This document shows positions 1,575 to 13,894 of a DNA stretch of 64,000 bases, piece after piece. The stretch lies in the IMG/VR virus record IMGVR_UViG_3300021599_001395, positions 1 through 64,000 of that record; one strand, written 5' to 3'. The position numbers and the translations under genes were made by a program. How positions within the stretch are numbered: position 1 is the stretch's first letter; each line of letters starts with the position of its first letter. Under the pieces are notes generated by a model, which was not told the DNA's origin, did not search any database, and saw only the letters and a list, made by a program, of their open reading frames with translations. The stretch is from a virus.

Positions 1575-1583
1575 TTCTGTGGC
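1575..1583 (+). repeat. single half-site of the TTCTGTGGC element
   Basis: TTCTGTGGC with flanks GAAATT and AGGATC, in the gap between a terminator and a promoter. The same nonamer occurs at 4218, 6557, 7558, 7666 and 13540. No GCCACAGAA partner follows here. Confidence 0.6.
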
Positions 1584-1620
1584 AGGATCAAACTCTTTAA
1601 CAAAACATTATGAAAATAAA

Positions 1621-1653
1621 TTTGGAAATAGAAAGTATTATATTGTATATTTG
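1621..1653 (+). promoter_or_regulatory. Bacteroidota-type promoter
   Basis: TTTG (1621-1624), a 21 bp spacer and TATATTTG (1646-1653). It lies 12 bp before ATG 1666 and inside a longer upstream-extended frame, which argues for the 1666 start and a very short leader. Confidence 0.85.
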
Positions 1654-1665
1654 AAAAAAAACATT

Positions 1666-2076
1666 ATGATTGAAATGATTAAATCGGAATTGAAGTGGAG
1701 AGGAAAAGAAACCTACTCAATAGAAGAAATTATTGAAGTCATTGAGAAGTATAATAAAAAAGAAGAAACTCATAGAGTTGAAAGTTGTGGGTTTGTTGCC
1801 GATATGGAAACCAGACAAATAACTATTGACGATAAAAAACACAACCTACCAAAAAAAGAATTTTTGATTATTCATTACCTTATGGAAAATAAAAACAAGG
1901 TATTGAATAGAGATAAGATACTAAATAAAATTTGGGAAGATGATGTGATTGTAATAAACAGAACTATTGATGTTCACATCAGGAGAATTAGAAATAAATT
2001 TCCAACAATTCCAATTAGAACAATTAAGGGAGTTGGATATACTTGGAGTGATAGAGAGACTTTAACAAATGTTTAA
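1666..2076 (+). CDS. stand-alone OmpR/PhoB-type winged-helix regulator
   Basis: A 136-residue protein. Residues about 42-132 form a response-regulator C-terminal DNA-binding domain: KKHNLPKKEFLIIHYLMENK, then LNRDKILNKIWED, the recognition region RTIDVHIRRIRNKF and the wing TIKGVGYTW. There is no receiver domain; residues 1-40 are a short lysine-rich helical segment. Start 1666 is chosen because the promoter lies immediately upstream; the frame is open further 5' but that part spans a repeat element. It is likely a phage transcription factor acting without phosphorylation. Its targets are unknown, and the repeated intergenic dyads of this arm are one candidate. Confidence 0.82.
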   Translation: MIEMIKSELKWRGKETYSIEEIIEVIEKYNKKEETHRVESCGFVADMETRQITIDDKKHNLPKKEFLIIHYLMENKNKVLNRDKILNKIWEDDVIVINRTIDVHIRRIRNKFPTIPIRTIKGVGYTWSDRETLTNV

Positions 2077-2085
2077 CATAAATTA

Positions 2086-2118
2086 TTTGGAGGTATAATG
2101 TTTTAAGTTGTATATTTG
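2086..2118 (+). promoter_or_regulatory. Bacteroidota-type promoter
   Basis: TTTG (2086-2089), 21 bp, TATATTTG (2111-2118), 14 bp before ATG 2133. It drives the cluster of small genes to about 4.1 kb. Confidence 0.85.
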
Positions 2119-2132
2119 TAAAAATTAAAATT

Positions 2133-2363
2133 ATGGTAACTTTACACGAAGAAAAATTTATGGACTATAAAATCGGTTTAGCCGGTTCGTTCAAACAATC
2201 ACTTTACGAAACCTTTTTCAAAGGAGATACGGAGAACAGAAAGAAGTTAATGTCTGTTTTTCCCGAACTTGAAGTCGCTCAAAGATACGCCTCCGAAAGT
2301 GGTTATTGGAAAGGACTTGTGGAGAGATATAATAAACAATACAACACAAACTATAACCCATAA
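2133..2363 (+). CDS. hypothetical protein, 76 aa
   Basis: Small, mostly helical protein with no recognised motif. The leader AAAATTAAAATT before ATG is the AT-rich type used in this genome. First gene of an operon of nine small genes. Confidence 0.7.
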   Translation: MVTLHEEKFMDYKIGLAGSFKQSLYETFFKGDTENRKKLMSVFPELEVAQRYASESGYWKGLVERYNKQYNTNYNP

Positions 2364-2369
2364 AATAAT

Positions 2370-2528
2370 ATGCCAACAAGAGAACAAACAGACAAAGTTT
2401 TCACTGAATTGATAAGTTTATATGACATCGCCGATGAACTTGAAAACAATGGCGAAGAAGAAAAATCAATCGAAATGAGAATTAAACTCAACATTATCGG
2501 ACAATTTATTCAATCATTAATAAAATAA
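2370..2528 (+). CDS. hypothetical protein, 52 aa
   Basis: Short frame (MPTREQTDKVF to FIQSLIK) beginning 6 bp after the previous stop and ending 1 bp before the next ATG. Residues 12-48 suit an amphipathic helix or coiled coil with an acidic middle (ELENNGEEEK). The tight spacing supports it as real. Confidence 0.65.
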   Translation: MPTREQTDKVFTELISLYDIADELENNGEEEKSIEMRIKLNIIGQFIQSLIK

Positions 2529-2529
2529 A

Positions 2530-2727
2530 ATGAAATCACAACAAGTTTTTATTGTAATGTACAATGACCGATATGGTAACGGAGACCAGAAGAAAATAGA
2601 GGTGGTATTAAAAGATGAAAAAGATTTTAAGAAGTGGTTGAAGAACCATAACTACGATAGGGATGCAGAACCCGAAACAAAAGAAGAATTTGATTTAATT
2701 CCAGTTAACCTTTTAACTTTTGATTAA
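2530..2727 (+). CDS. hypothetical protein, 65 aa
   Basis: Charged alpha/beta mini-protein (FIVMYNDRYG, then a lysine-rich helix DEKDFKKWLKNH). No recognised family. It starts directly after the upstream stop. Confidence 0.68.
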   Translation: MKSQQVFIVMYNDRYGNGDQKKIEVVLKDEKDFKKWLKNHNYDRDAEPETKEEFDLIPVNLLTFD

Positions 2728-2747
2728 CGATTATTATATTATCTTTA
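2719..2747 (+). promoter_or_regulatory. variant Bacteroidota-type promoter
   Basis: TTTG (2719-2722), a 17 bp spacer and TATCTTTA (2740-2747; final G replaced by A), 17 bp before ATG 2765. It is weaker than its neighbours but placed like them. Confidence 0.5.
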
Positions 2748-2764
2748 CAAATAAAAAAAATTGT

Positions 2765-3028
2765 ATGACAACACAACAATTCAACGAGAAGTACAAAGAT
2801 TACTTGGAGGAAGGACACTATGGTTTAGCCATAGGTGCTGGAGAATTTGTAGAATGGTTAGATAAAAAGTTTGAGGACTTTGTTAAGAAACCCGGTTTTA
2901 GATTTACACAGATTAAAGCGAAATTCGGTTATGGTAGATTTTACGCCGAAGGTTTAACAAGTGATGAAGTTCGTGAAGTGGAACAGAGAATTACAGATTT
3001 ACATTCAGGTACAAAATTAGAATTTTAA
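2765..3028 (+). CDS. hypothetical protein, 87 aa
   Basis: Start 2765 (MTTQQFNEKY) is preferred over an in-frame ATG 45 bp upstream because the intervening bases contain a promoter-like sequence. The protein has helices around EKYKDYLEEG and EWLDKKFEDF, an aromatic stretch KFGYGRFYAEG, and ends LEF. No function is recognised. Confidence 0.68.
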   Translation: MTTQQFNEKYKDYLEEGHYGLAIGAGEFVEWLDKKFEDFVKKPGFRFTQIKAKFGYGRFYAEGLTSDEVREVEQRITDLHSGTKLEF

Positions 3029-3030
3029 TT

Positions 3031-3273
3031 ATGGCAAGAGTATCAAAATTAGCACAAAGACAAACCTATTCAAACGGACATCAAATTTGTGTTGGATTGA
3101 CTGGTGATATTGGTTATATATCTATTGAAGATAATAACCTTTATCCCGAAGGTGATAGTCGAGCAGATAGAAGGGATATGAATTTTAATAGGATAATGGT
3201 TCCCGTTATGACAAGGGAAGACCTTAAAGATTTACAGACCGCTATTGGTGAAGTATTAAAAAACTCAAAATAA
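3031..3273 (+). CDS. hypothetical protein, 80 aa
   Basis: Small protein with a beta-type N-terminal half (GHQICVGLTGDIGYISIED) and a C-terminal helix (TREDLKDLQTAIGEVLKN). It overlaps the next start by one base (TAATG), implying coupled translation. Confidence 0.7.
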   Translation: MARVSKLAQRQTYSNGHQICVGLTGDIGYISIEDNNLYPEGDSRADRRDMNFNRIMVPVMTREDLKDLQTAIGEVLKNSK

Positions 3274-3557
3274 TGTCATACACAATAGATAAAATAATTC
3301 CAGTCAAATACGAATGGGATGATAAATGGACGGTAACCGCAGATCTTCGTGGACTTGAAACCTTTGAGAACTGCGAAAGTAATTATGATGTGGTTGAAAG
3401 ATTAAAAGATAATAATGTCCTTTCAAGTAAAACTAGTGAGGATAGTGAATATTGTCAATTCTTTGCATATTTCAGTACAAAGAAAGCGGCAGAGAACTTT
3501 ATCAAAAGATTAGGAACTTATATTGAAAAAAGAAAAAAATTAATATCATCTTTGTAA
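3273..3557 (+). CDS. hypothetical protein, 94 aa
   Basis: Translation is coupled to the preceding gene by TAATG. The sequence alternates short strands and a C-terminal basic helix (KKAAENFIKRLGTYIEKRKK). No family is recognised. Confidence 0.68.
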   Translation: MSYTIDKIIPVKYEWDDKWTVTADLRGLETFENCESNYDVVERLKDNNVLSSKTSEDSEYCQFFAYFSTKKAAENFIKRLGTYIEKRKKLISSL

Positions 3558-3558
3558 T

Positions 3559-3789
3559 ATGGAAATTTTAACATTTAGAGAATGGAGTGAGAACTTTGTA
3601 AAAGTTATCTTTGATTTAGAGGGTGGAGTAGAAATCAAATCATTTAACAAAACAATTCTTAAAGTAAAAACCCCAAAGATTGTTAATGGTTTGTTAGAAG
3701 AACAAAGTAAAATGTTGTTGAAACATTACACCGATAACTTTGATAAAATACAAAGTCAGTATCAAGAATTATTAAACGAAGTTATATGA
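3559..3789 (+). CDS. hypothetical protein, 76 aa
   Basis: Begins 1 bp after the upstream stop and overlaps the next gene by 4 bp (ATGA). N-terminal beta segment followed by two helices. No motif recognised. Confidence 0.66.
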   Translation: MEILTFREWSENFVKVIFDLEGGVEIKSFNKTILKVKTPKIVNGLLEEQSKMLLKHYTDNFDKIQSQYQELLNEVI

Positions 3790-4121
3790 CCGCACACCAC
3801 ATAGCAAAAGTTGTTCAAAGTCAATTCGATAAAGTAGATTTCGACGCCATCATTGATAAGTGGAAACACATTAAAAGAGAGGATTGTGGTAGAGTATCAG
3901 ATGAATGGGTTAATACAAGGATTGATGATAAACAATACTATAAGTGGATGAGGGCGTGTTCCTTATTAGAGGAACATATTAAAAGGAACTTTGAAACCTT
4001 TGAAGAAACTGAATTGGTTTATACTTGGGCGAAAGACCTTTGTATTCAAAAGAACAATGAATTAAATAGGTGGCGTCAGTTTGGTGCGTATCAAACATTT
4101 TCTCAATTTAGAAAGAGATAA
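3786..4121 (+). CDS. hypothetical protein, 111 aa
   Basis: ATGA overlap with the previous gene. Helical and tryptophan-rich (DKWKHIKRED, YYKWMRACSLLEEHIKR, ELNRWRQFGAYQTF). No catalytic motif is visible. Last gene of the operon, followed by a terminator at 4149. Confidence 0.68.
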   Translation: MTAHHIAKVVQSQFDKVDFDAIIDKWKHIKREDCGRVSDEWVNTRIDDKQYYKWMRACSLLEEHIKRNFETFEETELVYTWAKDLCIQKNNELNRWRQFGAYQTFSQFRKR

Positions 4122-4148
4122 TATGAGAAACCTAATCTGTACCTTTTT

Positions 4149-4175
4149 AACCCCGACATAATGTTGGGGTTTTTT
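4149..4175 (+). terminator. rho-independent terminator
   Basis: ACCCCGACAT / ATGTTGGGGT, a near-perfect 10 bp stem with a tiny loop and one G-T pair, followed by six T. Confidence 0.88.
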
Positions 4176-4195
4176 GTTGCTTGAACTTTGCTGGT

Positions 4196-4250
4196 CCTGT
4201 GCGCAACAGGTGAGATATTCTGTGGCAGACTAAACACACTCGCCACAGAA
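4196..4250 (+). repeat. intergenic dyad element, full copy
   Basis: TTCTGTGGC (4218-4226), a 15 nt spacer, and its exact inverse GCCACAGAA (4242-4250). It is preceded by a small stem CCTGT-GCGCA-ACAGG (4196-4210) and by CAGGTGAGATA shared with the copy at 6557. It lies between a terminator and a promoter. Confidence 0.82.
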
Positions 4251-4326
4251 ATTTCAGATGACCGGGGTCAGGACAGTTTCAGGGTAAAACTATTTATATC
4301 TGTTAAGAAAATTTTAACAAAATAAA

Positions 4327-4359
4327 TTTGGAAATACAAAGAAATAAGTTGTATATTTG
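4327..4359 (+). promoter_or_regulatory. Bacteroidota-type promoter
   Basis: TTTG (4327-4330), 21 bp, TATATTTG (4352-4359), 36 bp before ATG 4396. Confidence 0.85.
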
Positions 4360-4395
4360 TAATGTCATTTAATTATTAACTCAAAACTTTTTCAA

Positions 4396-4665
4396 ATGAA
4401 AAGTAAAGTAAAAAAACAAAAACACACCCTACTCAAAGGAGAGGGAGCAAACCAACACACTCTTTACGGAGAGTTTAAGATTGATGAAGAAAAGTCCTTT
4501 GCAACATTGGAAGTAACAAAGGATAGTGTATTAAAACACGAACAACCTGACGGAAGTTTCTCAAACGAACATCAAGCCTTAAAGATTGACAAAGGTAATT
4601 GGGTTATGGGAAAACAAGTTGAGTACAATCCGTTTTCTCGTTCAGTAAGTCAAGTTTGGGACTAA
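4396..4665 (+). CDS. hypothetical phage protein, 89 aa
   Basis: Basic N-terminus (KSKVKKQKHTLLKGEG) then a beta-rich domain with HTLYGEFKIDEE and the ending SRSVSQVWD. The layout resembles small conserved phage proteins of unknown role. First gene of a four-gene operon. Confidence 0.72.
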   Translation: MKSKVKKQKHTLLKGEGANQHTLYGEFKIDEEKSFATLEVTKDSVLKHEQPDGSFSNEHQALKIDKGNWVMGKQVEYNPFSRSVSQVWD

Positions 4666-4691
4666 TTTATTCACACACTAAATCAACTCAA

Positions 4692-5096
4692 ATGGCAAAT
4701 CCGTTAATTCATTCTAAATCCAGTGTTAAACGCTGGGGTGGAAAGGTAGAAGATTATTTACCTATTCACGAACTTATTGATAGTCCAAAAATGACTATGA
4801 ATAATAATAGTGCGAGGTTACTTACTCACAATACCTGGTTCGCATACCACATTGTTCCGAAAATCTTTGGTTACAACATTGTTAATTCTGACGGAAAGTC
4901 CGTTGATGTTGTAGATATTGCGATGTTACATATTGCAGAAGATTTCCGAATGAAGTTTGTACCGACACCACAGGACTATCTTAAACATTTAGAAGTCCAA
5001 CCCTGGATGAATAATGGAGTTAAGCCCGTTGATAATCCCGAAGCGTACGAAATTGTTAAAAACTTAAATCAAAAATTACACGATTATGCAAACTAA
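4692..5096 (+). CDS. DUF6915-like phage protein
   Basis: A 134-residue protein. The opening HSKSSVKRWGGKVEDYLPIH and the following helix with IFG fit a small family (I recall DUF6915) whose members share HAKSSAxxFGG..EDYLPIHEW. Start 4692 matches that opening; an ATG 36 bp upstream overlaps the previous gene and lacks a leader. No enzymatic role is known. Its 3' end overlaps the next gene by 11 bp. Confidence 0.7.
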   Translation: MANPLIHSKSSVKRWGGKVEDYLPIHELIDSPKMTMNNNSARLLTHNTWFAYHIVPKIFGYNIVNSDGKSVDVVDIAMLHIAEDFRMKFVPTPQDYLKHLEVQPWMNNGVKPVDNPEAYEIVKNLNQKLHDYAN

Positions 5097-5766
5097 TGAA
5101 GCAGTAAAACTCTGGAAGGAGTTAGGTATTACACACGCAAATATGGAGTTCAGTTGTGGTGGAGATAGTATGAATGACTACCACTTTACTTTCTACAAGA
5201 AAAACGATAGTAAGAAAAAGAATGTCCCCGAAGAAATTGAGGTTAATAGTCCCGAATTGGAAAGTTACTTTGACAAAGAAGTGTTTGATGAAGTTGAGTT
5301 TTATGTAAACTCTGACGGACACTACATTGGGGAGCACGGAAATGTTTATATTGAATTAGATGATAGTGATGAAGATGAAGAAGAACATACTTTCATTTAT
5401 TCAAAAAGTGCCAAAAGTGAGTGGTCGGAGAGAATTGAAGAAACAATGGAAATCAAATTATCAAAGAAGATGTCTAAATTTGTTTCGGAGTATGTTAGTA
5501 ACATTAACGGAGAAGAAGGGAATTGTACTATCAATTTCAAAAAAGATTTCATAATGTCTGACGAACAAGAAAAGTTGGTGGGAGAATTGGAAGAAATTGT
5601 ATTACAAGAAACCGCAGACTTTGAGCCTTCCTATGATGAAGGGGAGAAAGAAGATTACTATACTTTCACAACAAATGACGGAGATGATAGAGAAGAATTA
5701 ACTATCAAAGATGATAAGTTGTTGGTATCTGTTGGAACTTCGTTTATCATTTACAAAGAAGATTAA
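5086..5766 (+). CDS. acidic hypothetical protein, 226 aa
   Basis: Strongly acidic protein with a run ELDDSDEDEEEHT near residues 90-103 and another acidic stretch near residue 190. Two similar halves, each ending in a beta segment, are suggested by SxELExYFDKEV and EKLVGELEEIVL. No cysteine cluster or membrane segment. Acidic phage proteins of this kind can mimic DNA or bind basic partners, but nothing here shows which. Confidence 0.7.
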   Translation: MQTNEAVKLWKELGITHANMEFSCGGDSMNDYHFTFYKKNDSKKKNVPEEIEVNSPELESYFDKEVFDEVEFYVNSDGHYIGEHGNVYIELDDSDEDEEEHTFIYSKSAKSEWSERIEETMEIKLSKKMSKFVSEYVSNINGEEGNCTINFKKDFIMSDEQEKLVGELEEIVLQETADFEPSYDEGEKEDYYTFTTNDGDDREELTIKDDKLLVSVGTSFIIYKED

Positions 5767-5794
5767 ATTATTAACAAATTAAATTAAATCAGTT

Positions 5795-6466
5795 ATGCAA
5801 ATCGTTATCAATAATTTACAATTTCCGTATGACATTGGTTGTCGTATTTTGAAAGTGAAACACAAAGATTGTCCTTTCAGTCAGTTGGAAGATATTTGGG
5901 AAGATATTACCCCGATTACTTTCAAAGAGATAGCCCAATTAGAGAACTTGGAACAACGCCGTGTGGCTATGTTGAACTATGGGTTAGATAGATTGGTCAA
6001 AGAGATTAAACCCGAATTGATTGATAAGAAAACATTGAAGAAAACAACAACTTGGGTTAGTCAAGACGGACAACTTGTTACCAAAAAATTCAATGACACT
6101 TATGAACTTTACAAAGTTAATGGGGAAGTTTTCGGTAAGGCTCGTAATTCTTGGTCAAAACCTGATGATTGTTACTATGTAAAGTGTAAGGACACAAGTA
6201 CCGACAGAGAGTATTTCATTTGGGTTGATATGAAAAGTGTGGCAAACACAAATGGTCAGGGTTGGAATTGGGATATTAAAAAGGTCAATGCAATTCAGGC
6301 AATTGCTTGGACTATTCAAACGGACATTCCCGAAGGTTGTATTGAGAAGATTGTAAGACAGGGAGATTGTGTGTTGATTAAACCGATAGGGAAGAAAGTA
6401 AAGTCGGAAAGTACAAGACACTTAACGGAAAGTGAGTACAAAAATCTGTTGGTCGCTGAGAGTTAG
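5795..6466 (+). CDS. hypothetical protein, 223 aa
   Basis: Soluble protein with an N-terminal helical part (LENLEQRRVAMLNYGLDRL) and a C-terminal beta-rich half rich in tryptophan (ARNSWSKPDDCYYVKC, NGQGWNWDIKK, AIAWTIQTDIPEGC). No recognised catalytic signature. It closes its operon before the terminator at 6482. Confidence 0.72.
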   Translation: MQIVINNLQFPYDIGCRILKVKHKDCPFSQLEDIWEDITPITFKEIAQLENLEQRRVAMLNYGLDRLVKEIKPELIDKKTLKKTTTWVSQDGQLVTKKFNDTYELYKVNGEVFGKARNSWSKPDDCYYVKCKDTSTDREYFIWVDMKSVANTNGQGWNWDIKKVNAIQAIAWTIQTDIPEGCIEKIVRQGDCVLIKPIGKKVKSESTRHLTESEYKNLLVAES

Positions 6467-6481
6467 TAGTTTTTGACAAAT

Positions 6482-6512
6482 GAAAGGGGGTACAATTAGT
6501 ACCCCTTTTTTT
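6482..6512 (+). terminator. rho-independent terminator
   Basis: AAAGGGGGTAC / GTACCCCTTT stem with an AATTA loop and a seven-T tail. A second small stem TGCAC-TTTTT-GTGCA follows at 6514-6528. Confidence 0.9.
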
Positions 6513-6543
6513 ATGCACTTTTTGTGCACTCGATCTGCATATT

Positions 6544-6589
6544 AACAGGTGAGATTTTCTGTGGCGGATCAACTATACTCGCCACAGAA
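6544..6589 (+). repeat. intergenic dyad element, full copy
   Basis: AACAGGTGAGAT leads into TTCTGTGGC (6557-6565), a 15 nt spacer and GCCACAGAA (6581-6589). Arm sequence, spacer length and position between terminator and promoter match the 4.2 kb copy. Confidence 0.82.
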
Positions 6590-6654
6590 AATTCTTGGTT
6601 CAGATCCTGAAATTTTTAGATATAATATCTTAACTAAACTTTAACGAAAATAAA

Positions 6655-6686
6655 TTTGGAATCAAAATATATAAGTTGTATATTTG
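6655..6686 (+). promoter_or_regulatory. Bacteroidota-type promoter
   Basis: TTTG (6655-6658), 20 bp, TATATTTG (6679-6686), 14 bp before ATG 6701. It lies inside a longer in-frame extension and so supports the 6701 start. Confidence 0.85.
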
Positions 6687-6700
6687 TAAAAATTAAAATT

Positions 6701-7465
6701 ATGATTTACACAACTAAAGCTCAAGCAAAAAAATTAACGGGTATCGGTTACCTGGGGTCGGTTAACTTAACTACCAAACATCAGAAGGCGTACAAGTACA
6801 ATGAACTTACTTATAGTTTATACCTCGCACCCGCAAAGTCAAGTGGTTATGAGGTTTGTCCTATGAGAAGTGAAGAATGTACATTGCTATGTTTGAACGA
6901 ATCGGGAATGAATAAAATGACACAGAAGGTAAAGGGTGATGTTATTAATGAATCTAGAATTAAAAAAACGAAATTATTCTTTGAACACAGGGAATTTTTT
7001 GTTAATTGGATGATAGATGAAATATACACCGCAAAGAAAAAGGCAGATAAACTCGGTCACAAGTTCAGTGTTCGTTTAAACAATACATCAGATATAACCC
7101 CCGAAAGTTTTTATGTGACATATAAAGGAGAAGTGAGAAATGTATTACAGATTTTCCCCGATGTTAAATTTTACGATTACACGAAAGTTCCGAAACGAAT
7201 TGAATTGTTAAAGAAGTACAATAACTACGATTTAACATTTTCATTTAGTGGATATAACTTTCCCGATTGTATTAGTATGTTGAATAATGATGTTAGAGTG
7301 GCGGTCGTATTTAGAAAAGAATTACCCGAAACTTTCTGGGGTCGTAAAGTTATTGACGGGGATGAATACGATATGAGATACTACGATGAAAAAAATGTTA
7401 TTGTAGGTTTGAAATATAAAAGTGTTAGAAACAAGTTAAAGGATGATTACAAGTTCGTTGTTTAG
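6701..7465 (+). CDS. phage protein with CP..EC..LC motif (GP88/DUF7227-like)
   Basis: A 254-residue protein. The segment YSLYLAPAKSSGYEVCPMRS, then EECTLLCLNESG (about residues 37-66), resembles phage families with a cysteine cluster near 'CP..S..C...CL...G' (I recall GP88 or DUF7227). The rest contains LNNTSDITPESF and a beta-rich half with repeated Tyr/Phe. Whether the cysteines bind metal or a cluster cannot be told. It is monocistronic, with its own promoter and terminator. Confidence 0.6.
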   Translation: MIYTTKAQAKKLTGIGYLGSVNLTTKHQKAYKYNELTYSLYLAPAKSSGYEVCPMRSEECTLLCLNESGMNKMTQKVKGDVINESRIKKTKLFFEHREFFVNWMIDEIYTAKKKADKLGHKFSVRLNNTSDITPESFYVTYKGEVRNVLQIFPDVKFYDYTKVPKRIELLKKYNNYDLTFSFSGYNFPDCISMLNNDVRVAVVFRKELPETFWGRKVIDGDEYDMRYYDEKNVIVGLKYKSVRNKLKDDYKFVV

Positions 7466-7485
7466 TAGTTTTTGTTTTGATAGAG

Positions 7486-7513
7486 AACCCACCAGTAAAA
7501 TGGTGGGTTTTTT
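7486..7513 (+). terminator. rho-independent terminator
   Basis: AACCCACCA / TGGTGGGTT stem with a GTAAAA loop and a six-T tail. Confidence 0.9.
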
Positions 7514-7557
7514 ATTGCTGTTACCAGAGCAGATCGCAGCGCAAAGCACAGTGGAAT

Positions 7558-7566
7558 TTCTGTGGC
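7558..7566 (+). repeat. single half-site of the TTCTGTGGC element
   Basis: TTCTGTGGC followed by AGAATAG. No inverse partner at the usual 15 nt spacing. Confidence 0.6.
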
Positions 7567-7665
7567 AGAATAGTTTTATTGATTATCAATGAGTTATGAA
7601 AATAGCAAAAGTTGCAAAAGTTGCAGCAACACCAGAGCAAGTTGCCAGATTCAGAGCTATGGATT

Positions 7666-7698
7666 TTCTGTGGCAGACATTTGTATTACGCCACAGAA
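7666..7698 (+). repeat. intergenic dyad element, full copy
   Basis: TTCTGTGGC (7666-7674), a 15 nt spacer and GCCACAGAA (7690-7698). Third full copy with identical arms and spacer length; the spacer sequence itself differs. Confidence 0.82.
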
Positions 7699-7763
7699 TA
7701 TTTTTACCGTGCCGGGCTGGGGTCGTGATCAAAAATATTTTTGCAAAATTTTAACAAAATATA

Positions 7764-7795
7764 TTTGGATTATAACTTTATCCGTTGTATATTTG
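7764..7795 (+). promoter_or_regulatory. Bacteroidota-type promoter
   Basis: TTTG (7764-7767), 20 bp, TATATTTG (7788-7795), 37 bp before ATG 7833. The leader GATGTCATTAATTATTAA resembles that of the 4396 gene. Confidence 0.85.
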
Positions 7796-7832
7796 TGATG
7801 TCATTAATTATTAAACTCTAAATTTTATTAAC

Positions 7833-8288
7833 ATGGGAACTAGATCTCTCACAACATTCATTGAAAGATGGAACGATGAAAAGACAGGTAAAAAGAAACA
7901 AGTTAAGATTGTAACAATGTATCGTCAAATGGACGGTTACCCCGAAGGACACGGACTTGACCTCGCAGATTTTTTGGCTGGTGGTACTGTTGTTAATGGT
8001 TTGCCGATAGGTGTAATTACAGGTGAAGACAAGACACTTTACTTTAATGGAATGGGTTGTTTGTCCGCACAGGTAATCGGACATTTCAAAACCAATTCTG
8101 GAGGAATTTATTTACACAGGGGAGGAATTACCAACTGTTGGGAACAGTATCGATATGAGGTTATTGTAGATGAAGACAACCCGAAAGAAATCTTACTCCG
8201 TTGTTATGATGTGTATGACCGTAAATGGATATTCGAGGGAAACCCTAAAGATTTTGTTAAAAAATACAAAGAAAAAGAAAAAGTATAA
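7833..8288 (+). CDS. conserved phage protein of the MGTRSLT type, 151 aa
   Basis: Opening MGTRSLTTFIE with YRQMDGYPEGHGLDLADFLA (residues about 30-49) marks a widespread phage family of unknown function. A central glycine-rich part and YEVIVDEDNPKEI follow. No active-site residues are known for the family. Single-gene unit between two promoters. Confidence 0.78.
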   Translation: MGTRSLTTFIERWNDEKTGKKKQVKIVTMYRQMDGYPEGHGLDLADFLAGGTVVNGLPIGVITGEDKTLYFNGMGCLSAQVIGHFKTNSGGIYLHRGGITNCWEQYRYEVIVDEDNPKEILLRCYDVYDRKWIFEGNPKDFVKKYKEKEKV

Positions 8289-8296
8289 AAAATATT

Positions 8297-8328
8297 TTTG
8301 TATTATAATTTAAAACTCCGTATATTTG
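8297..8328 (+). promoter_or_regulatory. Bacteroidota-type promoter
   Basis: TTTG (8297-8300), 20 bp, TATATTTG (8321-8328), 33 bp before ATG 8362. Confidence 0.84.
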
Positions 8329-8361
8329 TATCACATTATCTAACAATTTAAATTTTATTTT

Positions 8362-8904
8362 ATGGGATTAGACCAGTATCTCTCCAAGAAAACTTATGTT
8401 AAAAATTGGAGCTTCCACACTAAGGAACAAAAACACACTGTCACCGTTAAGAAGGGTGGTAAGAAAAGAACCGACATTAACCCTGAAAAAATCTCCTACA
8501 TTGTTGAGGAAGTAATGTATTGGAGAAAAGCAAATCAAATTCATAATTGGTTTGTACAGAATGTTCAGGATGGTGAAGATAATTGTCGGGAACATTATGT
8601 GGAGAAAGAAAAACTGAAAGAACTTGTTGACACCTGTAAGAAAGTTCGTGACAGTTTATTGAAGTCCGAAATCAAATTGGTTCAAGCTGAGGTTGGTTGG
8701 GCTAATGGTGAGAAGATGTATGACAATATCGAAGTTTACACCGACACGGAAGTCGCGGAGGAATTGTTACCACCGAGTCCAGGTTTCTTCTTTGGTTCAT
8801 ATGAGTTCGATAAATGGTATCTTCAGGATATTGAAAATACTATTAACGCGATCGAACCACTATTAGACAGTGACGGTGAATTTTATTACGACTCGTCTTG
8901 GTAA
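8362..8904 (+). CDS. conserved phage protein of the MGLDQYL type, 180 aa
   Basis: The opening MGLDQYLSKKTY and MYWRKANQIHNWFV (about residues 53-66) define a family common in phages of many hosts. A long charged helix (KLKELVDTCKKVRDSLL) and a C-terminal segment SPGFFFGSYEFDKWYLQDI follow. Function is unknown. Its own promoter lies upstream and a hairpin overlaps the next promoter. Confidence 0.8.
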   Translation: MGLDQYLSKKTYVKNWSFHTKEQKHTVTVKKGGKKRTDINPEKISYIVEEVMYWRKANQIHNWFVQNVQDGEDNCREHYVEKEKLKELVDTCKKVRDSLLKSEIKLVQAEVGWANGEKMYDNIEVYTDTEVAEELLPPSPGFFFGSYEFDKWYLQDIENTINAIEPLLDSDGEFYYDSSW

Positions 8905-8913
8905 AAAAATATT

Positions 8914-8955
8914 GGGGATATTGTTTGGTAAAACGATATCCCCTTTATATCTTTG
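8914..8955 (+). promoter_or_regulatory. promoter overlapping a terminator-like hairpin
   Basis: TTTG (8924-8927), 20 bp, TATCTTTG (8948-8955) forms the promoter of the next operon. GGGGATAT (8914-8921) pairs with ATATCCCC (8936-8943), so an 8 bp hairpin of the upstream transcript covers the -33 region and spacer. Only three T follow, so termination would be weak. Confidence 0.72.
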
Positions 8956-8978
8956 TATCACATTTTAAAATAAATCTT

Positions 8979-9215
8979 ATGACAAAAGAATTGTTACAAA
9001 CTTGGACAACCAAAGCGAAAGAAGTATTAGAGGGACGAACTATTATATCAGTCCGTTATCTTAATGATAAAGAAATGGAAATGATGGGTTGGTATAAACG
9101 ACCTGTCGTGTTCTTCCTCGACAACGGAACATCCTGTATTCTCTCTATGGACGACGAGGGTAATGATGGTGGTGTTTTATTCTATGGTAAAGATGGTGTA
9201 TTACCTACACTTTAA
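8979..9215 (+). CDS. hypothetical phage protein, 78 aa
   Basis: Start 8979 (MTKELLQTWTTK) lies 23 bp after the promoter; a longer frame would begin before it. Likely fold is a helix followed by an antiparallel sheet (GRTIISVRYLN, RPVVFFLDNG, ILSMDDEG). Common in phages, function unknown. The junctions after it reuse the leader AAAATAAATCTATATGA. Confidence 0.72.
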   Translation: MTKELLQTWTTKAKEVLEGRTIISVRYLNDKEMEMMGWYKRPVVFFLDNGTSCILSMDDEGNDGGVLFYGKDGVLPTL

Positions 9216-9226
9216 AATAAATCTAT

Positions 9227-9442
9227 ATGAGAAGTTTTTTAGAATTAAAAACAGCAATAACAAACGGTGTTCCATTAGTATGGAATGACCCTGACCCAAT
9301 CAAAGGTACTGATTATACAATCACATACATTGAACCACTAGATGAAATTGATGATGATGAAGACCCAATGGGTTATCCAATTCTAATTCAATATGGGGGT
9401 TCAGAAGCTCAGGTTTATTTACATGAAATCATTTTAAAATAA
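9227..9442 (+). CDS. hypothetical protein, 71 aa
   Basis: Small acidic beta-rich protein (DYTITYIEPLDEIDDDEDP). No motif recognised. It starts 11 bp after the previous stop with the repeated leader AAAATAAATCTATATGA. Confidence 0.68.
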   Translation: MRSFLELKTAITNGVPLVWNDPDPIKGTDYTITYIEPLDEIDDDEDPMGYPILIQYGGSEAQVYLHEIILK

Positions 9443-9448
9443 ATCTAT

Positions 9449-9847
9449 ATGAAAAAACGAATTAAAGTTAGGTTCAATCTCGGTAGAGGTAAGAACTATC
9501 TAAAATGGAAAATCGAATATCCATCAGGTGAGGTAGAGTATCATTATCCTATCAATGTACAACTCGTAATGAAGAACTGTCAGCTTAAGAACAACAGGAA
9601 TGCCGCTGAGAAGATTTATAAAAATCAATCACACAAAGTCGTTTGTGCTTGGGTACTCTGTGAGGATATCGATGTGAAGTTCGATAAATTTAAGGCGTAT
9701 GACACGATGGATCTGGATCGATTAACATACAATCCAAGAAGATTACCATATTGGGTGAAAGATGATGGTTATCTAATGTGTATGGATGGAGTAACAGTAA
9801 ATGAAATTGGAACAGTGGATTATAAATTATTCATAACTAAAAATTAA
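9449..9847 (+). CDS. hypothetical protein, 132 aa
   Basis: Basic N-terminus (MKKRIKVRFNLGRGKNYLKW) and a beta-rich body with three cysteines. The motif VVCAWVLCEDI and the ending DYKLFITKN are not linked to any family I know. Same operon and same repeated leader as the preceding gene. Confidence 0.68.
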   Translation: MKKRIKVRFNLGRGKNYLKWKIEYPSGEVEYHYPINVQLVMKNCQLKNNRNAAEKIYKNQSHKVVCAWVLCEDIDVKFDKFKAYDTMDLDRLTYNPRRLPYWVKDDGYLMCMDGVTVNEIGTVDYKLFITKN

Positions 9848-9851
9848 AACT

Positions 9852-10448
9852 ATGCCAAATTGGTGTTCAAACTCAATCACCATAACAGGTGATGAGGAAA
9901 AAATTAAATTCTTAAAGAATGTAATTGAGAATGGTATCCCCACTGAAAAACGACAGGAAGCGAATGTTTTCATGACTCTCGTCGGAATTCCTCCTGACAT
10001 GAATCTGTATGAATATGAACAGAAGTGGTATGGAACCAACATAGATAATTGGGGGACCAAATGGGATGTGGCATATAATGAATCTTATTTCTCTTTTGAG
10101 GATACTGAAATAACCATGTCACCTGATACAGCTTGGTCACCACCAATTGGATTTGCTCAAAGTTTGGCAAGGAACTATGGGGTAAAGGTGGAGATGTACT
10201 ATGAGGAACCAGGTTCCGACTTCTGTGGTAAAACTATAATCACTGAAGATGGTACGTTGACGGAGGAGGATTATGATTTTGTACATGGGAAATATGTCTT
10301 TGATAAAGAAGGTTTTTGGAATGAAATTATAAATAATATAGAGTTTGCAAAAGAAGATGATGTATCTTTGGAAAACTTCATATTGGATTATGGTTATGTG
10401 AATGAAGAAGACAAAAAAGAGATTGAGAAATTATATAATGAATCATAG
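9852..10448 (+). CDS. Api92-like protein with ferredoxin-fold domain
   Basis: A 198-residue protein opening with the hallmark MPNWCSNSITITG. The conserved pairs WGTKWDVAY (around 64) and TAWSPPIGF (around 92) are typical of the Api92/DUF1281 family, which carries a C-terminal ferredoxin-like (non-iron) fold and occurs in phages and conjugative elements. The molecular role is unknown. The C-terminal 60 residues are acidic and helical. Confidence 0.8.
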   Translation: MPNWCSNSITITGDEEKIKFLKNVIENGIPTEKRQEANVFMTLVGIPPDMNLYEYEQKWYGTNIDNWGTKWDVAYNESYFSFEDTEITMSPDTAWSPPIGFAQSLARNYGVKVEMYYEEPGSDFCGKTIITEDGTLTEEDYDFVHGKYVFDKEGFWNEIINNIEFAKEDDVSLENFILDYGYVNEEDKKEIEKLYNES

Positions 10449-10493
10449 TTTTTATTTTTAACCAGCTGTTTATACAGCACAAATCAAACAAGT

Positions 10494-10973
10494 ATGGGTA
10501 GAGTTAACAAACTTACAGAGGGTGTGTTCACCAGTATCGTAGGTAATCAAACAATCATTCCTTCGTATGACAAATTCTTAAATGTTCAGGACGATTTAAA
10601 AAAACCGAGTCAGGAACTTAAGAAATTAATCACACAATACAAGAAAGAAATAACATCAAATAAAACAATATTTGAGAAGTTAGCAAAGCTTGAGGATGTG
10701 ATTATGCAGATCCGTACACGGGACAACCTGTCCAATGATATGATCAAATTGAACATTGTCCGTGAGTACATCTACGCTCGTATTCCTTTCCATCGTAACG
10801 ATAAGGAATCAAACGACATCCGTGTCATCGTTGGATTAACTGAATTCAATGGTGTGGAAGTGGACAAGATGTATGACAACAAAGAGTTTATGGACAAAGC
10901 CAAGAATAAATTGGTTGAGGCTATGAACGAGATTATTAACCAAAATTTGGAAACTGTAAATAAAATAGATTAA
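10494..10973 (+). CDS. hypothetical protein, 159 aa
   Basis: Mostly helical, charged protein with a likely coiled coil around residues 35-70 (QELKKLITQYKKEI) and RTRDNLSNDMIKL. It ends 1 bp before the methyltransferase start, so the two are probably co-translated and may work together, for example as a partner or regulator. A small hairpin (GCTGT/ACAGC, 10465-10478) lies in its leader. Confidence 0.68.
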   Translation: MGRVNKLTEGVFTSIVGNQTIIPSYDKFLNVQDDLKKPSQELKKLITQYKKEITSNKTIFEKLAKLEDVIMQIRTRDNLSNDMIKLNIVREYIYARIPFHRNDKESNDIRVIVGLTEFNGVEVDKMYDNKEFMDKAKNKLVEAMNEIINQNLETVNKID

Positions 10974-10974
10974 T

Positions 10975-11892
10975 ATGAAAAAGATTAACAATGTATTATC
11001 ATTATGTGACGGTATCTCAATGTTCCAATACGCATTGAAAAAATCAGGAATTGAGTACAAGAATTATTTTTCAGGTGAGATCAGTGAAACTGCTATGAGT
11101 ATAGCAATGAAGAATTTCCCGAAAACAAAACAACTTGGTGATATCCGTAACATCAAAGGAAAAAATTTACCTGAGATCGATATTATGGTTGCGGGATTTC
11201 CTTGTCAACAATTCTCAAGAGCAGGTAATGAAGATGGATTAACAGATATTCACGGAAATGTTCTCGACACATACAAGAAGTATCGTGAAGCCGATAAAAA
11301 GGGATGGATTAGAGAAGGATCTCAATCACACATTTTTTGGGAAGTATATAGGATCTTCAAAGAAGTTAAACCGAAGTATTTCATTTTTGAGAATGTTAAA
11401 ATGGATCCAAAGTGGATGTACATCATATCAACATCTTTCGGTGTTAGTCCCATCTTAATAGATTCAAAATTGGTTTCCGCTCAACATCGTGAGAGATACT
11501 ATTGGACAAATATTCCTGGTGCTATAATTCCAAAAGATAAAGGAATTCATCTTTCAAGTATTATTCCTGATGCGATCGGTGGACACGGTGTTAGAAACAT
11601 TGATACAGGTAAGAAAACTCCTGAAGGTAAAAAAGTTTGGCGTAAGAACGCTACAACAAGAAAAGATGGTAAGGCCAACTGTTTAACAACAAGAAAGGGT
11701 AACTGTTCCAAAGTGGAATTAAAGGACGGAACCATTAGACAAATCACCATCGAGGAAGCTGAACAACTTCAAAATCTCCCGAAGAACTATACCAAAGTTC
11801 CTGGTGTTGCTGAAGGTAAGAGGTGGCACGCCATCGGTAATGGGTTCACCGTCAATGTATTTGTTCACCTATTAAAAGGTCTTAAAAAATAA
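10975..11892 (+). CDS. DNA C5-cytosine methyltransferase
   Basis: A 305-residue protein with the expected motif order: motif I LSLCDGIS (8-14), motif IV GFPCQQFSRAG with catalytic Cys77, motif VI ENV (139-141), motif VIII QHRERYYW (170-177), a short target-recognition region, and motifs IX-X (RQITIEEAEQLQNLP ... AIGNGFTVNVF). It transfers methyl from SAM to cytosine C5, most likely to protect phage DNA from host restriction. It is compact but seems complete. No restriction endonuclease is next to it, so it looks like an orphan enzyme. Specificity cannot be read. Confidence 0.93.
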   Translation: MKKINNVLSLCDGISMFQYALKKSGIEYKNYFSGEISETAMSIAMKNFPKTKQLGDIRNIKGKNLPEIDIMVAGFPCQQFSRAGNEDGLTDIHGNVLDTYKKYREADKKGWIREGSQSHIFWEVYRIFKEVKPKYFIFENVKMDPKWMYIISTSFGVSPILIDSKLVSAQHRERYYWTNIPGAIIPKDKGIHLSSIIPDAIGGHGVRNIDTGKKTPEGKKVWRKNATTRKDGKANCLTTRKGNCSKVELKDGTIRQITIEEAEQLQNLPKNYTKVPGVAEGKRWHAIGNGFTVNVFVHLLKGLKK

Positions 11893-11894
11893 AT

Positions 11895-11925
11895 TTTGTG
11901 GAAAACATTTCACATATTATATTTG
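11895..11925 (+). promoter_or_regulatory. Bacteroidota-type promoter
   Basis: TTTG (11895-11898), 19 bp, TATATTTG (11918-11925), 18 bp before ATG 11944. Confidence 0.82.
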
Positions 11926-11943
11926 TAATCTAAATCCAAGTGT

Positions 11944-12291
11944 ATGACAAATAGCAATAGAATGTTAGTTCAGGATCTACAGAAACAACTGATCAATAAG
12001 GTTCTTTCCTTTATGGATGAGAATGATTTAAATATGGTGGAATTAAAAACCCCACTCAGGATCTTTGTTGAAGAACCATCATTTGATGATTATGTTATGG
12101 TTCCAATTGTGGCGAGGTCATTGTATGCTGATGGTTCCATCGGAGCTTATGATGAAGAAATAAAGATCGAGAACTGTAGTATCTACGAGATCGCATACAT
12201 AATGGATGTTCTCGAGAGTGGGGACTACACGGTAGATGAAGACGACTTTATCGATCCCGCTGGTGGACGAGGATTACATTCTCACATTTAA
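11944..12291 (+). CDS. hypothetical protein, 115 aa
   Basis: N-terminal helix (MLVQDLQKQLINKVLSFMDE) followed by an acidic alpha/beta region. The ending DPAGGRGLHSHI is unusual. No family recognised. Confidence 0.68.
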   Translation: MTNSNRMLVQDLQKQLINKVLSFMDENDLNMVELKTPLRIFVEEPSFDDYVMVPIVARSLYADGSIGAYDEEIKIENCSIYEIAYIMDVLESGDYTVDEDDFIDPAGGRGLHSHI

Positions 12292-12316
12292 ATTTCGTAA
12301 CTCAAAACTCAAGTAT

Positions 12317-12889
12317 ATGCACACTATCAATCTCGGAAAAAAAGTGGTCGTATCCGACCCTTGTTACACCATCCCAACTTGGTGTCAAGCTGTAATCGAA
12401 AATGTAAAACCCGGCGTGTATCACACGACAGTCAGGAAACACGACGCTGGTGATTGGGGAAATCGTTGTTCAATGGTCTTTGCAATCCACGAGGAGTATG
12501 TTAACTTTGATCACCTGTTACACGGGAAATGGGAAGAACACCCAGCATCCATCGGAGTTGACTCGGGTCAATGTGGGATCTTTTCTTTTGAATCCTACAG
12601 GAATGACGAAGTTAAGTTCGATTTCGAACCATATGACTTCGGTAATGATTACCTTAGTAATAATGAGGGTGGTGACCTGTGGTATCGTCATATGTGTAAA
12701 CACACATTGAGTGATCAATCTTGGGGAGTGTATGACAGTGGGATTGTTTCCAGTTCAGGATTCGGAGATGGAGCTTATCAATTGTATGTTGTTAAGAAAC
12801 GAAACAAGATCGTGGCCTTCGCCATTGACTTTGGAGTTGAGGAGGGTAAGTACATCGACTTCGATTACAGGAAGAAAGAATTAGTTTAA
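12317..12889 (+). CDS. conserved phage protein with VSDPCY motif
   Basis: Start 12317 (MHTINLGKKVVVSDPCYTIP) is preferred over an upstream ATG that would overlap the previous gene by about 55 bp. The motif VSDPCY near the N-terminus, then PGVYHTTVRKHDAGDWGNR and SGQCGIFSF, is typical of DUF4241-like and related phage proteins of unknown function, probably an all-beta domain. A strong hairpin follows the stop. Confidence 0.7.
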   Translation: MHTINLGKKVVVSDPCYTIPTWCQAVIENVKPGVYHTTVRKHDAGDWGNRCSMVFAIHEEYVNFDHLLHGKWEEHPASIGVDSGQCGIFSFESYRNDEVKFDFEPYDFGNDYLSNNEGGDLWYRHMCKHTLSDQSWGVYDSGIVSSSGFGDGAYQLYVVKKRNKIVAFAIDFGVEEGKYIDFDYRKKELV

Positions 12890-12896
12890 GAACTTG

Positions 12897-12922
12897 GTGG
12901 TCAAATGACCACCATTTTCATT
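12897..12922 (+). terminator. probable rho-independent terminator
   Basis: TGGTGGTCA / TGACCACCA, a perfect 9 bp stem with an AA loop, followed by TTTTCATTT. Confidence 0.78.
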
Positions 12923-12955
12923 TAAACCCTATTATAAAAATATAAATCTAATATT

Positions 12956-13384
12956 ATGTACTCAGATAACTTGATCAGAATCATCAGACCATCTCAGTGG
13001 ATTAATTTAATCTATATCGTTCTTGGTATTGCTTTGATCCAAACTATCTTTGTTCCCCTTCTTGCTGTCATCAAGATGTTGGATGTATATTTTTGGAGAT
13101 ATGAATTCAGGGAGAGGACCATCATTGAAAGAAGGGGAATATTATCCGTGACAAGGAAGGAGGTTCACTTCTACAGGATTAAATCCATCAGAATCGACGA
13201 ACCACTGTGGATGAGAATCTTCGGACTGTCCAAAGTATCCATAATCACCTCCGATCAATATCATCCTGAATTGGTTTTATACGCTGTATCCGACGGACAT
13301 TACCTCCGTGAGTACATTAGATCTAACACCGATCAGTGGAGAAAGCTCGAAGGAGTTAAAGAATTTGACCTATATAACCTATAA
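12956..13384 (+). CDS. PH-domain (bPH2-like) membrane protein
   Basis: A 142-residue protein. Residues 15-45 form a hydrophobic membrane segment (INLIYIVLGIALIQTIF). After it comes a bacterial PH-like domain: YEFRERTIIERRGILSVTRK, HFYRIKSIRIDEPLWMRIFG, KVSIITSD, as in YdbS-type proteins. It could recruit factors to the inner membrane or interfere with host envelope proteins. No clear promoter is visible; it is followed 3 bp later by a tiny membrane-associated protein. Confidence 0.75.
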   Translation: MYSDNLIRIIRPSQWINLIYIVLGIALIQTIFVPLLAVIKMLDVYFWRYEFRERTIIERRGILSVTRKEVHFYRIKSIRIDEPLWMRIFGLSKVSIITSDQYHPELVLYAVSDGHYLREYIRSNTDQWRKLEGVKEFDLYNL

Positions 13385-13387
13385 TTT

Positions 13388-13522
13388 ATGATAAGTAAGA
13401 TTGCTTGGTTCTTTGATTACTACATCTTGTACTTCCTGTACAATGAGAGAAAGATCAACAGGTACCATCGTAATATGATCAACAAGTACGGGGACAAATA
13501 CAGAATACGAATCGACAGGTGA
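13388..13522 (+). CDS. small hydrophobic/basic protein, 44 aa
   Basis: Frame MISKIAWFFDYYILYF followed by a basic tail ending KYRIRIDR. It starts 3 bp after the PH-domain gene with a leader TAATTT. The aromatic N-terminus could lie in the membrane. Its stop codon overlaps the CAGGTGAGAT string that accompanies the repeat element. Confidence 0.55.
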   Translation: MISKIAWFFDYYILYFLYNERKINRYHRNMINKYGDKYRIRIDR

Positions 13523-13539
13523 GATATGACCCCTCGATT

Positions 13540-13548
13540 TTCTGTGGC
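13540..13548 (+). repeat. single half-site of the TTCTGTGGC element
   Basis: TTCTGTGGC with upstream CAGGTGAGATA (13516-13526) as in the full copies, but 14 extra bases separate the two and the inverse arm is absent. It looks like a degenerate copy. Confidence 0.6.
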
Positions 13549-13672: not shown

Positions 13673-13894
13673 ATGAAGAAAACAACAACCAAGGCTACTC
13701 GTGGAACAGGTTCCAAGACAGCCAACAAGACCCGCCGCACCACTTATGTTGCGGTAACGAACAATGTTTACCATGACGGTACTAGTTACCGTGTACGTGT
13801 AAGTGTTGACGGTATCAAGTACAGCAAGAACTTCACTTCGAAGAAGAATGCTGAACATCAGATTTTCCGTGGCATAACTATGCTCATTAATTAA
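13673..13894 (+). CDS. small basic protein with AP2/arm-type DNA-binding pattern
   Basis: A 73-residue protein: a Lys/Thr-rich N-terminus (KKTTTKATRGTGSKTANKTR) followed by DGTSYRVRVSVDGIKYSKNF and TSKKNAEHQIFRG. The three-strand-then-helix pattern resembles AP2-like or integrase arm-type DNA-binding domains. Probably a DNA-binding accessory protein. Start 13673 is chosen because the longer frame begins upstream of the promoter-like sequence. Confidence 0.62.
   Translation: MKKTTTKATRGTGSKTANKTRRTTYVAVTNNVYHDGTSYRVRVSVDGIKYSKNFTSKKNAEHQIFRGITMLIN

Follow-up and report, generated by a model that had tools for sequence, protein, structure and literature searches.

The window analysed here comprises the first 64,000 nt of the virus record IMGVR_UViG_3300021599_001395 (150,387 b; G000 below), from a phage which encodes a tail sheath, a baseplate wedge and a head-and-packaging gene. 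Its left part carries a short repeated intergenic element with a left arm, TTCTGTGGC, followed in full copies by a spacer and a convergent right arm. Comparison with a near-identical record of 286,785 b (G001), which extends the region of the window leftward, and with three diverged relatives suggests that these elements are half-sites for a DNA-binding phage protein that regulates early operons and co-evolves with its sites, a reading to which we assign a probability of about 0.52. The copies and adjoining features of the window are listed below, scores in bits being those of a model of the two-armed element (R1).

736 to 1479, + strand: ParB-like gene, the marker that led to element-bearing relatives
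1500 to 1527, + strand: terminator-like stem-loop, preceding the copy at 1575
1575 to 1583, + strand: one-arm copy (left arm only), resembling a full copy that ends right after the AAACTC of the loop
1621 to 1653, + strand: promoter-like sequence TTTG...TATATTTG
4149 to 4171, + strand: terminator-like stem-loop, preceding the copy at 4218
4218 to 4250, + strand: two-armed copy, spacer 15 nt; R1 51.6 bits, its G001 twin being part of the model
4327 to 4359, + strand: promoter-like sequence TTTG...TATATTTG
6557 to 6589, + strand: two-armed copy, spacer 15 nt; R1 55.6 bits, G001 twin part of the model
6655 to 6686, + strand: promoter-like sequence TTTG...TATATTTG
7558 to 7566, + strand: one-arm copy, in tandem with the copy at 7666
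7666 to 7698, + strand: two-armed copy, spacer 15 nt, in which GTATTAC abuts the right arm; R1 44.1 bits, G001 twin part of the model
7764 to 7795, + strand: promoter-like sequence TTTG...TATATTTG
13540 to 13548, + strand: one-arm copy, upstream of a small gene whose product may be arm-type/AP2-like
13865 to 13873, + strand: one-arm copy with one mismatch (TTCCGTGGC), whose G001 counterpart lies outside the small gene

The initial annotation had placed TTCTGTGGC at 1575, 4218, 6557, 7558, 7666 and 13540, with exact inverted partners after 15 nt at 4218, 6557 and 7666, and both statements were confirmed, all six arms being exact and on the + strand. With up to one mismatch TTCTGTGGC was matched 21 times on the two strands of the window as compared to 5.6 times (standard deviation 2.3) in shuffled sequence, and the two-arm pattern with up to three mismatches was matched 3 times as compared to 0.01. 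The six copies lie, as had been described, in gaps between likely genes, those at 7558 and 7666 sharing one gap, while the mechanically called open reading frames that do overlap some of them have no other support. The arm had been noticed nowhere else, and it is indeed nearly confined to this part of the phage, the additions being an exact copy at 100075 on the other strand of the 150-kb record and the one-mismatch copy at 13865. An upstream CAGGTGAGAT, said to be shared by three copies, adjoins the arm at 4218 and 6557 but lies about 20 nt farther out at 13540 and is not general in G001.

The window copies represent the right-hand part of an array that occupies approximately 30 kb of the 287 kb of G001, where the exact arm occurs 15 times in forward orientation between 141,680 and 171,675 and 6 times in reverse, 5 of the latter inside that stretch. 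A degenerate two-arm pattern identified 20 two-armed copies at 138-174 kb of G001, besides several one-armed ones, and the reverse-complement scan of the asymmetric pattern returned 11, all of which, where a comparison was made, coincide with these symmetric sites. The spacers of the 20 copies measure 15 (five copies), 16 (three), 17, 23 (two), 24 (four), 25 (two), 26, 32 and 39 nt, and the spacing of precisely 15 nt is thus a small-sample effect that is true of the three window copies only. Across the 174 of 287 kb that were scanned, and with up to one mismatch, the left arm was found 21 times within 140-172.5 kb and the right arm 8 times, neither occurring in the rest; the left arm is therefore the better kept of the two. 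Because a two-armed copy is symmetric its arms give no orientation by themselves, and direction is visible in the better-kept left arm, in the one-arm copies and in a motif of the loop. The records G003 and G004 have the same inter-copy spacing as G001, so the three were treated as a single lineage that provides no independent evidence. Over the same 140-172.5 kb of G001, all 23 occurrences of GTATTACA are on the + strand and none is on the - strand; they are found inside and outside the elements, at some coding and some intergenic positions.

Most G001 copies are preceded by a terminator and followed by a TTTG/TATATTTG promoter, and 19 of the 30 TATATTTG promoters at 138-174 kb have a copy upstream. 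The left arm follows the T-run of the terminator by about 44 nt (15 copies measured), and the distance from the end of the right arm to the -33 box is 63-65 nt in 10 of 17 measured copies and 37-81 nt in the others, three of the 20 two-armed copies having no promoter match close enough to measure. A helical phasing between element and promoter that seemed good in G001 was not borne out by the relatives and was discarded. We take these promoters to be of the Bacteroidota type (TAnnTTTG), and the host group is presumed from them. The virion structural protein encoded at 61410-62645 of the window has, as its best 20 among the matches listed, proteins of cyanophages and of Puniceispirillum phage HMO-2011 (62.9-66.8% identity), despite the Bacteroidota-type appearance of the promoters.

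The diverged relatives are G052 (310 kb, whole), G051 (180,831 b, possibly partial) and the 15-kb contig L261 (also G050). The last was reached via the promoter pattern and again via the ParB-like protein of the window (84% identity), which also led to G051 (locus L266, 75% identity) and G052 (locus L268, 67%). G001 and all three relatives carry convergent arms upstream of promoters. Within a phage the arms are spelled uniformly, and between phages they are altered on both sides; the two-arm plan is kept while its letters change, and the sites are nearly confined to one region. The arms of G001 are TTCTGTGGC/GCCACAGAA, whereas G052 has 17 pairs of TTGTTTGG[C/T]/GCCAAACAA with spacers of 14-101 nt and L261 has 8 pairs of TTG[T/A]TTGGC/GCCA[A/T/C][T/A/C]CAA with spacers of 4-25 nt, TTnnnTGGC/GCCAnnnAA being common to these three. 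With up to one mismatch, the left arm of G052 occurs 21 times in a 32-kb region (19 of them in the exact 12-letter form) and 3 times outside, and the right arm 13 times and twice, respectively. Single arms are also present in G052, left-only at 242056 and 239848 and right-only at 239336 and 238525, the last two arms being the divergent pair 232849/232887. G051 has a less sharp arm of the AATGAATGGC type, with 4-nt spacers in five copies under a loose pattern.

The similar place of the copies in successive short operons, together with the variable loop, which may be likened to that of the attC sites of integrons, raises the alternative that the elements are recombination joints at which operon cassettes (element, promoter, genes and terminator) are gained, lost and shuffled. 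We regard this as improbable, as boxes of the attC type (RYYYAAC/GTTRRRY) stand beside the arms in none of the 20 G001 copies, on either side, the near-identical records have equal inter-copy spacing with no exchange observed at any copy, and the differing arm spelling disfavours homologous exchange between the relatives.

The sequence between the arms is not without constant parts. GTATTAC was found between the arms of 9 of 20 pairs in G001, 6 of 17 in G052 and 5 of 8 in L261, as compared to 0.03, 0.06 and 0.01 expected from shuffled loops, and its reverse complement between the arms of none of these 45 pairs. It starts 4-6 nt past the left arm in 16 of the 20 pairs that have it, and in G051 it is present in one long-loop copy and next to one single arm. 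GTATTAC also matches the complement of the 530 loop of 16S ribosomal RNA, to which no weight was given, as matches of a 7-mer are often expected by chance. A second shared module is the 20-mer ATAACTCATTGATTATCAAT, common with up to two mismatches to four G052 loops of 89-101 nt (near 249602, 255528, 257538 and 259982); its reverse complement lies at 7578-7597 of the window, after the one-arm copy at 7558, with one mismatch, and no further occurrence was found in G051, G050 or the remaining G001 sequence read. Four long interiors with a common module, inverted arms and an otherwise variable interior would also suit remnants of a mobile inverted-repeat element, akin to miniature inverted-repeat transposable elements, that had spread through the early region. 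This origin appears highly improbable, given that the copies keep a consistent position with respect to promoters and are not randomly placed, that positions of this kind are occupied by different arms in different phages, and that no target duplications were recognised by eye.

A more serious alternative, which we nevertheless consider rather unlikely, is a stem-loop read as RNA or as single-stranded DNA, in which the arms would form the stem and the spacer a loop presenting GTATTAC, and which might serve as a read-through processing or antitermination signal, a decoy RNA or the hairpin promoter of a phage polymerase. Such a structure would accommodate a loop of free length between kept arms, the presence of GTATTAC on one strand only and far above shuffled expectation, the alteration of the arms on both sides between phages and some covariation in G001. 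A stem kept by pairing alone would, however, be expected to let its letters drift with compensation within a genome, and the G052 stems retain theirs, near-perfect arms standing alongside diverged loops and flanks, which argues that the arm letters are read and not the pairing alone. Matched arms in G001 have no better pairing energy than mismatched ones (p=0.16), and exact one-arm copies exist both in the G001 lineage (1575, 7558 and 13540 of the window) and in G052. The flanks of 37 copies were scarcely more stable than shuffles, with a mean z of -0.43 (standard error 0.18) upstream and -0.20 (standard error 0.19) downstream, the opposite strand gave equal values (-0.45 and -0.13), and an outer stem was at best marginal (p 0.04-0.29). 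No Rfam 15 family reached its gathering score in the window, and the 24 matches that permissive settings gave in the G001 region (loci L050 and L051) all stayed below theirs, the highest scoring 32.2 bits against a required 56. None of the 20 G001 copies has a TAnnTTTG box within 70 nt before the left arm, so that RNA over the element would need read-through or another type of promoter.

Three further ideas were also dropped. A three-hairpin RNA, for which flanking hairpins had been seen by eye, failed on the weak flank z, alike on both strands; G-U wobbles as a sign of plus-strand RNA were not used, because most changes affect one side only and matched arms show no advantage in pairing over mismatched ones; and a coding element, with a seemingly conserved F-L-W frame through the left arm, found no support in the stop-free lengths of 24 copies, which are alike in all three frames. 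Considered together, the arm letters, the flanks and the one-arm copies favour letters of duplex DNA over a stem-loop.

The elements are repeated, restricted to one region, uniform within each phage, changed in both arms between phages, freely spaced and in some cases one-armed. In the regulator reading, which takes the duplex DNA to be read by a protein with a regulatory role, the half-sites would be asymmetric, with TTnnnTGGC as the left arm in three of the four phages and its reverse complement as the right arm, and would be paired, in a family of large phages, upstream of promoters of operons that are presumably early, judging by promoters and gene types. In many pairs GTATTAC lies 4-6 nt inward from the left arm. 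Each arm would probably be bound singly by a sequence-specific protein of the phage, and the bound arms may jointly set the activity of some 20 operons, whether by activating, repressing or organising them. Between phages, the binder has probably changed along with its arms. The operator of an early regulon that had been proposed initially is in part consistent with this, in that location, confinement and the plan seen in relatives suggest a protein-read site. The fixed spacing found no support, nor did the dimeric or tetrameric regulator argued from it, as the spacers range from 4 to 101 nt over three phages, where a classical dimer operator has a constant half-site spacing.

A number of observations weigh against the regulator reading. 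Spacers of such a range would be uncommon in a dimer operator and are more readily accommodated by a stem-loop, and the G001 stem has 85.3% paired cells, where column shuffles gave 81.9% (a level equalled in 3 of 500), a covariation score of 0.153 as compared to 0.110 (6 of 500) and 13 double-change cells as compared to 7.4 (2 of 500), with the caveat that kindred sequences may exceed such shuffles without structure. Eleven of the 30 promoters in the G001 region have no copy, and the promoter distance is tight in G001 only, being 26-90 nt in the relatives. An exact arm lies outside the array at 258945 of G001 (the G000 copy at 100075), and in G052 one of the exact single arms, at 234833, is located within a likely gene. 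G051 is the weakest case, its left arm (up to one mismatch) occurring 13 times inside and 8 times outside the region, and its right arm 9 and 13 times, respectively.

Among the early proteins, three look or are annotated as nucleic-acid-binding, namely the ParB-like protein and the products of two further genes:

1666 to 2076, + strand: OmpR/PhoB-type winged-helix protein (PF00486), proposed as the binder in the initial annotation
13673 to 13894, + strand: small gene for a sheet-plus-helix protein, a candidate binder; its 3' end is replaced in the window relative to G001

The winged-helix protein is no longer favoured, as it has no match in G051 and is located about 40 kb from the array in G052, yet it is still a candidate, being encoded directly behind a window site and present in L261, beside a site, and in G052. 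The small protein, of 56-70 residues, is put forward, at a low probability, as the binder of the arms. In three phages its gene stands where the array ends on the right, and the protein was found in G000-G003, G051 and G052, but in none of 18 other records, which include the 15-kb G050 and several fragments, two of these probably of this same phage. Its gene, at 171808-172020 in G001, is preceded there by an arm (171675), by a single arm with GTATTAC in G051 and by the divergent pair in G052, as autoregulation would predict. The model, obtained from a 3-sequence alignment (mean predicted local distance difference test score, pLDDT, 78.5; predicted template modelling score, pTM, 0.58; blocks from residue 21 on at 84-95), is a three-stranded sheet plus a helix. 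The best Foldseek matches, all weak, were an arm-type integrase domain (3jtz, E 0.65) and an AP2 domain (7et4, E 0.74), none being at E 0.001, and the best VIA matches had Z 4.9 (root-mean-square deviation 9.9) and 4.8 (2.2 over 47 residues), double-stranded RNA binding domains appearing further down both lists. By sequence the protein has no significant Pfam family (dsrm at E 0.04-0.11, below cut-off), no match among annotated phages and nothing credible in the PDB. In the window 161 bp of G001 (171988-172148) are missing at 13852/13853, between flanks of 100% identity, which truncates the small gene and removes the sequence that follows; this is either a true deletion or an assembly fault, and the loss, if real, speaks against an essential role. 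The specific proposal of a regulatory code in a jumbo-phage family, whereby a phage-specific minimal AP2/arm-type protein of 56-70 residues binds free-spaced convergent half-sites and a constant GTATTAC box at about 20 early operons while the spelling of the sites and the specificity of the binder switch jointly from phage to phage, seems quite unlikely to hold in every part.

Several known systems are comparable. The p4 sites of phage phi29 have inverted arms of 8-9 bp, 15 bp apart, upstream of early and late promoters, and are few and of fixed geometry; the elements share the inverted arms upstream of promoters but number about 20 and are freely spaced. The stoperators of cluster A mycobacteriophages are single asymmetric repressor sites of temperate phages, and are many, intergenic, directional and phage-specific, as are the short sites described here, which differ in their paired arms and show no sign of a repressor or of lysogeny. 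The intergenic repeats of halovirus HF2, which has an archaeal host, are reported to be of 58 and 29 bp and to carry a promoter (PMC8707807); the present elements are likewise intergenic and tied to transcription units of a tailed virus, whereas the HF2 repeats contain the promoter.

The nearest known kind appears to be the extended start-associated sequences (ESAS) of cluster K mycobacteriophages. These are described as imperfect inverted repeats around a spacer of varying length, present between genes at several places of the non-structural part of a genome, with a left repeat nearer the consensus than the right, a consensus that varies by subcluster and an unproven function (PMC3203893, PMC12699233, PMC11373665). 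Their repeats are of 17 bp (15 bp in Adephagia) with spacers mostly of 4-13 bp (12-14 in Adephagia), and they are located just before the start-associated sequence (SAS) and start codons, with a SigA-like promoter inside in Adephagia (same sources). Measured against these descriptions, the elements have in common the inverted arms about a variable spacer, the several intergenic copies, the non-structural restriction (partial in G051), a consensus that differs between relatives and, in G001, the better-kept left arm. They differ in arms of 9-12 bp, in spacers of 15-39 (G001), 14-101 (G052) and 4-25 nt (L261), in a promoter that lies downstream of the element and in having no SAS: the 13-bp SAS GGGATAGGAGCCC, with up to two mismatches, was found in none of G001 (174 kb), G000, G051 and G050, and once in G052, at 306784, outside the array. 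With arms of another length, another range of spacers and no SAS, the elements were not classed as ESAS and would, on this comparison, belong among phage-specific repeated intergenic dyads. For ESAS, the role of variable-spacer inverted repeats in phages has been a standing question since 2011 (PMC3203893) and is still called unverified in a later paper (PMC12699233), and the set described here offers short arms and a testable small protein for this question. In our judgement little is known of how large uncultured phages with TATATTTG-type promoters control their early genes, and the four related phages, whose sites occupy similar positions but differ in spelling, constitute a natural experiment, in which the reader should be shared, with shifted specificity.

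Beyond these phages the element was sought in several ways. Of 536 relatives by the head gene 80 were retained, and the whole records of 33 of these 80 loci were scanned by arm pattern, none of which matched. R1 matched 4 of 47 records, two being the same phage and two giving single weak matches (E 0.14 and 0.51) that were taken as chance; the other 45 gave no credible match, an absence that is little informative as most are fragments and R1 is specific for G001-type arms. None of 18 loci from other phages matched R1, and recurrent convergent 8-mers were found neither in 13 of these nor in two loci of very large phages, by a scan insensitive enough to miss the arms of G050 and G051 also. One scan of genome contigs found no relative of the ParB-like protein, which, like three other early proteins, was matched among annotated phages only at <60% identity. 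In the titles and abstract openings of the open-licence papers that the literature searches gave, no description of the element was found.

Among the neighbouring genes, one for a GP88 family protein (6701-7462; PF17338, E 3.3e-32) lies between two elements, a DNA methyltransferase gene (10975-11892; phrog_116, E 8.5e-54) is located in the early region, and a protein with a bacterial PH domain (PF03703, E 1.1e-14) is encoded at 12956-13384.

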